Positions 22,633 through 52,836 of a stretch of DNA of 64,000 bases are shown here, piece after piece. The stretch is from an uncultured Victivallales bacterium. GTDB taxonomy: Bacteria; Verrucomicrobiota; Lentisphaeria; Victivallales; UBA1829. The position numbers and the translations under genes are program-made. The notes under the pieces are model-generated. The model was not told where the DNA came from and did not search any database. It saw only the letters and a program-made list of their open reading frames with translations. The stretch lies in the NCBI GenBank assembly GCA_944391115.1, contig CALXSJ010000001.1, forward strand, positions 191,169-255,168. The letters run 5' to 3'. Position 1 is the first letter of the stretch. The number at the start of each line of letters is the position of its first letter.

Positions 22633-22775
22633 GGTTGATGCCGCGATGCTCTGCACCGCCAGAAATTGCTTCGTGCTCTTTTTTCAGTCCTGCCGCGGTC
22701 CAGCTGCGCAAAGCTGGCCGCCGGAGGCGAAATCCCCGGCATGGGCGTGTGCTCTGCGCCGGAGCATTTCATTTC
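22633..22775 (+). repeat. Dispersed structured repeat, copy 1
   Basis: Starts GGTTGATGCCGCGATG and ends near TTCATTT. It contains in order: GCGATGC/GCACCGC arms around TCT, a TCAGTCCTGCCGCGGTCC core, CCAGCT/AGCTGG arms around GCGCAA, and CGCC/GGCG around GGA. About 95 percent identical by eye to copy 2 over the first ~110 bases, then diverging. Confidence 0.85.
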
Positions 22776-22786
22776 AAAAAAATTTA

Positions 22787-22930
22787 GGTTGATACCGCGA
22801 TGCTCTGCATCGCCAAAAATTGCTTCGTGCTCTTTTTTCAGTCCTGCCGCGGTCCAGCTGCGTAAGCTGGTCGCCGGAGGCGAAATCCCCAATACCGCGC
22901 ATGCTTGCATCGCGGTAATTTATTTTCATC
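22787..22930 (+). repeat. Dispersed structured repeat, copy 2
   Basis: Starts GGTTGATACCGCGATG. Contains the perfect arms GCGATGC-TCT-GCATCGC, then CCAGCT/AGCTGG and TCGCC/GGCGA stems. Its right end differs from copy 1 and forms a near-perfect palindrome, TACCGCG..ATGC paired with GCATCGCGGTA at 22892-22918. It follows copy 1 after 11 A-rich bases. Confidence 0.85.
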
Positions 22931-50882: not shown

Positions 50883-52172
50883 TCAGGCGCCTTCCAGCAT
50901 TTGTTTGAGGTGCCGCGCATAGTCCGGGAAGGATGCGCAGCGTTCCGGCAGCGCGAAGGTCGAAGCCAGCGCCACGCCGTTGCCGGCGCGTCCGTGGGAA
51001 CCGCGCACGCGCCTCGCGTCCATGCTCGTCCGGAACGGATTCCACCATTCGGCGGGGAACAGTTCGCATGGATCGAAGCCGGGCTTGTTGTGAATGTCCA
51101 CATGGTCGGCGTAGTCGGGGGCCTCTTCGGGGCGGTCCCACCACTGATAGGAGAAGTGATACCCTTCGGCGGCCTCCAGGATCAGTTCGCCTGCGCGGGG
51201 ATGGTTCAGTTCCGGTGTCAGGCTCCGTTCGAGGACGCGCCCGATGCCGTTGGACATGCTGAAAAGCATTTTCAGTGCGTCGAGATCGCCTTTTTCCCGC
51301 ACATACACATGTGCGATCTGATGGTCGGCAAGCGCGAATGCGCGGCTGGTCACATACTGCGGATAGGTCATCTTTCCGACGTGCCGCACATCAAAATACG
51401 AGGAATTGCGCAGAATCCGGTTCGGATAGACCGGCGTGTCGACTTCCGTGATTTCATAATCGCCGCAGAAGGTGAACTCATATCCGTTTTCCCGCGCGTT
51501 GGCGTAAAGCGCCTCGACCATCTTTTCCAGTTCGGCAAAGGCCTTTGCGGTCTGAAGGCTCTGCGGGCCATGCTTCTGCTGGGCGTAGTCGAGATGCGGC
51601 AGGTAGATCAGGACCAGGGATTCCTTCTCCGCGGCGAGACGGCGGATCACCTCGATTCCCGCTTCCGTGATCCATGCGGAGGACTTGATCGAGGCGAACG
51701 GCCCCCAGTAGTGCATCAGATTGAACGAGAGGTCCGTGACTTCGCAGATCTCGTGATACAGACCGGGCGGACGCGAGAGAAACTCCTGAATCATTCCGCC
51801 GTGGTGTTTGTGAACCGGCGCGGGACTCAGGAACACATCCGAATCGGTTCCCGGGCACTGCTGGAAGCAGATCTGCGCAACCTTGCCTCCGCGTTTCCGG
51901 AAACTTTCCCAGATGCGCGCCCCTCCGTAGAGCGTGGACGGCTGTTTCCAGAAGAAGGGTTCCTGCAATGCGCGGTCGAAATAGCCGCTGGCGATCATGC
52001 CGTGTTCCGAGGGCGGAGCCGCCGTCCGGAGCGTCGCCTGCACGGGGCAGGTGAGGGCGGGAAAAAGCGATTCCGCCCGTCTCGGCGAAAGCTCTTTCCA
52101 GAATGCGGCTTTTGCGCGGGATTCAAACAGCGAATATCCCGCGCCGGCCCCCAGAACAACTGTCAGTTTCAT
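50883..52172 (-). CDS. Alkaline-phosphatase-superfamily phosphodiesterase/nucleotide pyrophosphatase
   Basis: 429 residues of the type I phosphodiesterase/nucleotide pyrophosphatase group. The nucleophile region TCPVQATLRTAAPPSEHGMI contains the catalytic Thr; metal ligands fall in YLPHLDYAQQKHGP, GDYEITEV and the C-terminal DIHNKPGFDPCELF. No signal peptide, so it is likely cytosolic, unlike many alkaline phosphatases. The substrate could be a nucleotide, a sugar nucleotide or a phospholipid headgroup. It lies directly upstream of the helicase-nuclease pair. No Shine-Dalgarno precedes the ATG, where the third repeat copy begins 12 bases upstream. Confidence 0.85.
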   Translation of the reverse strand: MKLTVVLGAGAGYSLFESRAKAAFWKELSPRRAESLFPALTCPVQATLRTAAPPSEHGMIASGYFDRALQEPFFWKQPSTLYGGARIWESFRKRGGKVAQICFQQCPGTDSDVFLSPAPVHKHHGGMIQEFLSRPPGLYHEICEVTDLSFNLMHYWGPFASIKSSAWITEAGIEVIRRLAAEKESLVLIYLPHLDYAQQKHGPQSLQTAKAFAELEKMVEALYANARENGYEFTFCGDYEITEVDTPVYPNRILRNSSYFDVRHVGKMTYPQYVTSRAFALADHQIAHVYVREKGDLDALKMLFSMSNGIGRVLERSLTPELNHPRAGELILEAAEGYHFSYQWWDRPEEAPDYADHVDIHNKPGFDPCELFPAEWWNPFRTSMDARRVRGSHGRAGNGVALASTFALPERCASFPDYARHLKQMLEGA

Positions 52173-52184
52173 TCAAAAGAATCA

Positions 52185-52324
52185 GGTTGATATCGCGATG
52201 CCTTGCGTCGCCAAAATCGTTTCGTGCAGGACTGTCAGTCCTGCCGCGGTCCAGCTGCGCAAGCCGGTCGCCGCAGGCGAAATTCCCGATACGGGCGTAC
52301 GCTTTGCACCGGGAGGTTCATTTT
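52185..52324 (+). repeat. Dispersed structured repeat, copy 3
   Basis: Starts GGTTGATATCGCGATG, like copies 1 and 2, and ends near TTCATTTTTT. It shares the GTCAGTCCTGCCGCGGTCC core, CCAGCT/AGCCGG and TCGCC/GGCGA arms. A further palindrome GCAGGACTGTCAGTCCTGC is made here by bases that differ in the other copies. It is about 80 percent identical to them by eye, and lies between the phosphodiesterase start and the ilvN stop. Confidence 0.85.
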
Positions 52325-52836
52325 TTGTGGAATCCGGCCGTGATGCCGGATGCGCGCGAAACCGCGGTGCTTCCGGTGCGTGCGACTTCGACGATCTTGT
52401 AGTCCGCCATCAGCGCAAGGAAGTGTTCAATGGTTTCCGGCGTGCCGGAAATCGCGATGCAGAGCTCGTCCTTGTTGACGTTCGGGATGTAGCCGTGGAA
52501 GAGTTCCACGAGCTGGACAATCGCCACGCGCGTGAGCTGGGTGGTCTTGACCTTGATGATCGCAAGTTCCAGCTCCAGATAGTCCTCCGAGTCCAGATCC
52601 GTCACGGAGACGACGTCGACCAGCTTGTTGAGCTGTTTTTCAATCTGCTCCAGCACCTCGTCGTCGCCCTTTGTGACGATCGTCATGCGCGAAAGATTCG
52701 GATCGTGCGTGTGGTTGACCGTCAGGGACTCGATGTTGTAGCCGCGTCCGCTGAACAGTCCCGCGATCCGGGCCAGCGCGCCGAACTTATTTTCCACCAG
52801 CACCGAAATCGTGTGCTGTCTGATCTCCTTTTCCAT
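52318..52836 (-). CDS. ilvN: Acetolactate synthase small (regulatory) subunit
   Basis: 172 residues. N-terminal ACT domain (HTISVLVENKFGALARIAGL, then RGYNIESLTVN) and the ALS C-terminal domain (EDYLELELAIIKVKTT, then ARTGSTAVSRASG). It binds valine and activates the catalytic subunit. The large subunit ilvB is not adjacent and not in the window. The last residues (GFHKK) and the stop codon overlap the right edge of repeat copy 3. The start is preceded by a purine-rich stretch; family length about 160-170. Confidence 0.95.
   Translation of the reverse strand: MEKEIRQHTISVLVENKFGALARIAGLFSGRGYNIESLTVNHTHDPNLSRMTIVTKGDDEVLEQIEKQLNKLVDVVSVTDLDSEDYLELELAIIKVKTTQLTRVAIVQLVELFHGYIPNVNKDELCIAISGTPETIEHFLALMADYKIVEVARTGSTAVSRASGITAGFHKK

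Follow-up and report, generated by a model that had tools for sequence, protein, structure and literature searches.

A probable gene-free IS200/IS605-type element family with three natural guide alleles in an uncultured Victivallales bacterium and its sister species

Tandem and single copies of the repeat

The window, i.e. the whole stretch of 64,000 nucleotides from an uncultured Victivallales bacterium that was analyzed, contains a hairpin-rich repeat as a tandem pair and as a third, separate copy (Table 1). All three copies, including the one placed at 52185, had been noticed in an earlier note on this DNA, and all were recovered. Copies 1 and 2 were 95% identical over 79 nt without gaps and 94% identical over 104 nt, in agreement with the proposed identity. 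The 11 bases that had been regarded as a spacer turned out to be the left terminus of copy 2 (TCAAAAAAATTTA), and copy 1 directly abuts copy 2. The stem-loop GCGATGC-TCT-GCATCGC, ascribed to both copies, is exact in copy 2 and contains one mismatch in copy 1. Folding as single-stranded DNA yielded z=-3.3 for copy 2 and z=-0.2 for copy 1; copy 1 therefore looks like a decayed older copy. The ambiguity of the copy 2 junction is at most 3 nt, within ATT.

Table 1. Repeat copies in the window and their parts
Feature	Position	Strand	Description
Copy 1	~22633..22773	+	Older, diverged; decay of the left terminus; GTGCTCTGCRCCGG-type right end, final TTCATT
TTCATT	22768..22773	+	Right terminus of copy 1; also served copy 2 as its target site (CL)
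Copy 2	22774..22924	+	Young, complete, 151 bp; GATA guide class; the unit that matches the empty-site comparisons
Left guide tetranucleotide GATA (X=G) of copy 2	22791..22794	+	Pairs with target TCAT; scheme from PMC5934647
Left subterminal hairpin of copy 2, GCGATGC-TCT-GCATCGC	22797..22813	+	Layout as in the intact insertion sequence L119/L208: GGGTTTAATACC plus hairpin with TCT loop
Internal three-hairpin core of copy 2, TCGTGC...CAGTCCTGCCGCGGTCCAGC..GCTGGTCGCC..GGCGAAATC	22825..22887	+	Found outside the element too
Right end of copy 2	22892..22924	+	Guide AATA, hairpin ACCGCGCATGCTTGCATCGCGGT, terminal TTTATT (CR)
Target TTCATT of copy 3	52168..52173	+	Includes the start codon of gene 50883-52172 on the minus strand (CAT on +)
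Copy 3	52174..52322	+	149 bp long; guide class GATA; GCTTTGCACCGG-type right end

Copy 3 begins at the start codon of gene 50883-52172, and its right end (52317-52322) coincides with the stop codon of an ilvN-like gene on the minus strand (52318-52836). For 7 of 20 young copies in the own genome (G000), the right end is overlapped by the stop codon of a neighboring gene. Where the element strand has TTNATT, the opposite strand reads AATNAA, which explains the overlap with ATGAA starts and with TAA or TGA stops. The repeat sits harmlessly at gene ends, as TTNATT overlaps the start and stop codons and is regenerated.

Copy number, precise insertion, and guide/target pairing

The own assembly is a fragmented draft of 44 contigs and 3.66 Mb that is about 95% complete, and it was searched piecewise, so that all copy counts are minimum values. 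With a threshold of E<=0.01, copy 2 had at least 52 matches, many of them with values of 1e-53 to 1e-64, and thus the repeat occurs far beyond chance. About 20 full-length copies are 95-100% identical, which indicates recent spread. Several contigs terminate inside copies, as expected for a dispersed repeat. The earlier note had named a restriction to three copies or a match to a named family as outcomes that would contradict its reading; the copy number speaks against the former, whereas the kind of element does have a name (see below). An alignment of the flanks of young copies revealed sharp ends, (T)CAAAAAAATTTAGGTTRATACC...GGTAATTTATT, and a unit of 150 or 151 bp that always follows TTNATT. 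The unit has no conserved reading frame and is too short to encode a transposase. Terminal inverted repeats are absent, i.e. neither of the termini TCAAAAAAATTTAGG and GGTAATTTATT is an inversion of the other, and palindromes resembling those of IS605-type elements are present near both termini.

Sister species of the same genus (G001 and G003), which are 83-98% identical beside the copies and lack the element in some orthologous regions, were used for comparison. Four loci yielded empty sites, and for three of these the site was seen in two sister species each: TTCATT^CGAA (L002/L148), TTCATT^TCTTG (L007/L151 and L163), TTTATT^TCACG (L015/L149 and L158), and, for the class with a C guide, TATGATT^TGGC (L192/L307 and L308). 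In each case the element stands behind a pre-existing TTNATT or TNATT, and at none of these four fully resolved sites was a target duplication observed. As both junctions contain ATT, the cut can be placed only to within three bases. Six further loci (L006, L008, L009, L195, L201, and L206) could not be evaluated in this way owing to divergence at the junction. A tandem pair at L012/L153 is complete in one species, whereas the other lacks exactly one of its units. The boundaries, the precise insertion without target duplication, and the recent spread are thereby established. We also considered that TTYATT might be part of the element instead of the target; the empty sites of all three guide classes rule this out.

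Three classes of young copies differ in one base of the left guide XATA. Copies with GGTTGATACC mostly follow TTCATT, copies with GGTTAATACC follow TTTATT, and a third class in G003, with TTCCATACA or TTTCATACA, follows TTGATT. The guide base X and the target base N were compared at 52 independent, non-tandem sites from four species. The combinations were A-T at 17 sites, C-G at 15 (all 15 sites with a C guide), G-C at 8, G.T wobble at 7, and others at 5. Watson-Crick pairs were thus formed at 40 of 52 sites, compared with a mean of 24.3 in within-genome permutations (maximum 36 in 20,000; p<5e-5), and Watson-Crick or wobble pairs at 47 of 52, compared with 33.3 (maximum 44; p<5e-5). In IS608, guide positions 1 and 2 pair with target positions -3 and -4 (PMC5934647), and the published IS608 pairs AAAG/TTAC and GAAT/TCAA fit a pairing of position 4 with -1 as well. 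When XATA was compared with TNAT (cut TTNAT^T) at the 52 sites, pairing was found in 40 for 1:-3, in 47 for 2:-4, and in 46 for 4:-1. The repeat family hence follows the guide/target code of IS608 and has three naturally occurring guide alleles, and a single base per copy predicts, via base pairing, the sequence beside the landing site. Guide and CR of the right end covary as well, with G-C in 36 and A-T in 5 of 47 tnpA-bearing insertion sequences; in gene-free copies, the counts were 37 A-T, 29 G-C, and 20 G-T.

The target choice of IS608 has been reset in the laboratory by guide-base changes (PMC5934647 and references therein). In the family described here, sister species harbor three naturally occurring guide alleles, each beside its matching target, so that the pairing code can be read from genomes and the tolerance for wobble pairs becomes testable. 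This natural record of guide/target pairing is unusually clear.

With its terminal TTYATT, one copy offers a valid target site to the next. The tandem pair in the window is explained by the right terminus TTCATT of copy 1, which served as the target for copy 2, whose guide base G matches the C. A new copy entering the target of an old one would leave the old copy behind the right end of the newcomer, and this can explain several guide/flank mismatches in tandems. The repeat thus illustrates in detail how tandem arrays arise when the right end of a gene-free IS200-type element is its own target.

Ends shared with transposase-bearing insertion sequences

In other Lentisphaerota (L094, L098), a tnpA gene (Pfam Y1_Tnp) is immediately followed by the right end of the repeat (ATACC-hairpin-GGTARTTYATT), and the right end of copy 2 is homologous to those directly behind tnpA in L094, L098, L208, and L241. 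A search with TnpA of the L094/L098 type retrieved an intact, TnpA-only insertion sequence in the same family, from Lentisphaerae bacterium ADurb.Bin242 (G020; MWCA01000042, L208/L119). Its left end follows TTTATT and reads CTTTTGGGTTTAATACC-CCGACCC-TCT-GGGTCGG, and its right end is GATACCCCGCGTGCTCTGCACCGGGGTAGTTCATT. The repeat shares the layout at both ends, i.e. TTTATT followed by GGGTTTAATACC and a hairpin with a TCT loop on the left, and GATACC-hairpin-GGTAGTTCATT on the right. This layout is of the IS200 type, with XATA as the guide, a hairpin in subterminal position, and TTYATT at the right terminus. In contrast to the repeat, the insertion sequence has an intact tnpA and no internal core, and the hairpin stems differ in sequence. 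Its TnpA belongs to Pfam Y1_Tnp, contains the HVH motif, and is related to the TnpA structures of ISDra2 and IS608; the clade is spread across many phyla with the same right-end signature. On the basis of sequence comparison, we regard the homology of the ends with those of intact tnpA-bearing insertion sequences as firm. It also bears on the right ends of the sister copies, whose differences had been attributed to selection on structure. Instead, the right-end hairpins GCATGCTTGCATCG and GTGCTCTGCACCGG are two known types, and each is found on different tnpA-bearing insertion sequences of the clade.

No intact tnpA of the matching type was found in the own assembly. The sole Y1_Tnp in the own genome is a broken IS200-like fragment of a non-matching type, without these ends and without an element nearby. 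This fragment (L066, G000 C35:25416-25862) contains internal stop codons and belongs to a TnpA lineage different from that matching the repeat. The locus L100 (G002 C4:48806-49111), just downstream of a tRNA gene, contains a decayed tnpA that does belong to the matching lineage (45% identity with the L094 TnpA) and is possibly a remnant of a former mover in the genus. Viral contigs yielded only three TnpA relatives. Across relatives, a correlation between presence of the element and of any Y1_Tnp is uninformative, because Y1_Tnp is common. As a matching intact tnpA is missing from the own assembly, we infer mobilization in trans by a missing or lost gene.

Taken together, the repeat is very probably a high-copy, non-autonomous element of the IS200/IS605 type (a "homogeneous PATE") of about 150 bp that is moved in trans by a Y1 TnpA. 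A non-autonomous mobile element had been among the earlier suggestions, which can now be specified in this way. The TnpA would recognize the subterminal hairpins of both ends in single-stranded DNA, and XATA just 5' of each hairpin would pair with TNAT at the cleavage site. The circularized element, presumably a single-strand circular intermediate, would then be pasted 3' of TTNAT, most likely at the cut TTNAT^T, and the flanking target would be kept once, without duplication. The predicted mover is a TnpA of the L119/L208 clade, for which matching proteins were seen in relatives only.

Palindrome-associated transposable elements (PATEs) are known from Haloquadratum walsbyi and Halanaerobium (PMC3119063, PMC7290912). 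All testable features that define PATEs (PMC3119063) were found in the repeat, and like PATEs it is transposase-less, lacks terminal inverted repeats, has IS605-like subterminal palindromes, creates no target duplication, and forms a homogeneous high-copy family. It differs in that it resides in Lentisphaerota, where, to the extent searched, no PATE has been described before, in that its interior is a three-hairpin module common to host repeats instead of a deleted insertion sequence core, and in its three guide alleles with matching targets and tandem insertion into its own end. With IS608 and ISDra2 of the IS200/IS605 family it shares one hairpin per end with a guide located 5' of it, insertion 3' of a short target that is retained in the left flank, the pairing positions 1:-3, 2:-4, and 4:-1, and homologous TnpA proteins in its relatives. 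Unlike these, it contains neither tnpA nor tnpB, and the guide base determines N in its target TTNAT(T). This format resembles the ISDra2 target TTGAT.

The internal core and alternative readings

A REP/BIME or REPIN family, spread by a domesticated REP transposase (TnpA-REP/RAYT), would likewise consist of small, intergenic palindromes in high copy number and tandem clusters, and REP transposases belong to the same Pfam family (PMC8266576, PMC3116915). However, the defining GTAG (or CGTC) 5' of the palindrome is absent, XATACC precedes both hairpins, and the unit is directional with two different ends and no inverted doublet. A unit of 150 bp is inserted precisely after TTNAT, and the roughly 95% complete draft contains no intact tnpA-REP, only the broken fragment on C35. 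We therefore consider the BIME/REP-like interpretation offered earlier very improbable. A classical MITE moved by a DDE transposase would also be short, gene-free, and abundant with AT-rich ends, but the missing terminal inverted repeats and the lack of target duplications at the four fully resolved sites make this reading practically negligible. Three observations sit less easily with the favored IS200/IS605 reading, namely the missing intact matching tnpA in a fragmented draft, with the mover not seen in the same cell, an internal core without counterpart in the intact insertion sequence of G020, and the orientation of the copies. Single-strand transposition predicts orientation along the lagging-strand template (PMC5371812). 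With the GC skew over 20 kb as a proxy, 17 of 20 copies in G000 and 9 of 10 in G003 were so oriented, but the bias was not replicated in G001 (4 of 10); all three genomes combined gave 30 of 40 (p=0.002). An orientation following the lagging-strand template is thus suggestive, not established.

The core consists of the hairpins CAGGACT..AGTCCTG, CCAGC..GCTGG, and CGCC..GGCG. Without the ends of the element, it occurs in other genera, in other families, and, within the own genus, in long, otherwise unrelated intergenic mosaics with a tandem period of about 412 bp. Its base pairs covary, with 39 double-change cells compared with 15.9 after shuffling and a score of 0.223 compared with at most 0.112 when slid. 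Such data could be accommodated by a functional structured RNA or RNA cassette, in which selection explains the conserved hairpins and mobility is secondary. This reading leaves both the precise ends and the guide/target matching unexplained, Rfam gave nothing above the gathering cut-off in the window or in six related loci, and many copies have lost hairpin 1 (68% of cells paired). The covariation could instead stem from palindrome correction at the DNA level, which can also make short palindromes covary. We thus give a structured RNA only a slim chance; the suggestion is needless for the element as a whole and possible for the core only. Under the IS200/IS605 reading, the core appears to be a host repeat captured between IS200-type ends. 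A more far-reaching version is that the core is a functional, structure-selected Lentisphaerota module (RNA or single-stranded DNA) from host intergenic hairpin mosaics, captured between IS200 ends and spread by TnpA, with the guide base naturally reprogrammed at least twice to yield three co-existing target specificities. We regard this version as speculative and rather unlikely.

The mosaics at L291, L292, and L293 (G000 C15, C5) and at L294 and L295 (G001) combine the same core with many different short hairpins, e.g. AGAATGC.GCATTCT, CAAGGGTC.GACCCTTG, GAACTTTTCC.AAAAGTTC, and GAGCGGTTTGAACCGCTC, none of which matched Rfam. Short gene-free sequences at L105, L106, and L107 (G053) and at L084 (G036) possess the same right-end hairpin (TACCTCGTATGCTTGCATCGAGGTAGTTTATT) with a different interior, which suggests further PATE-like families in the order.
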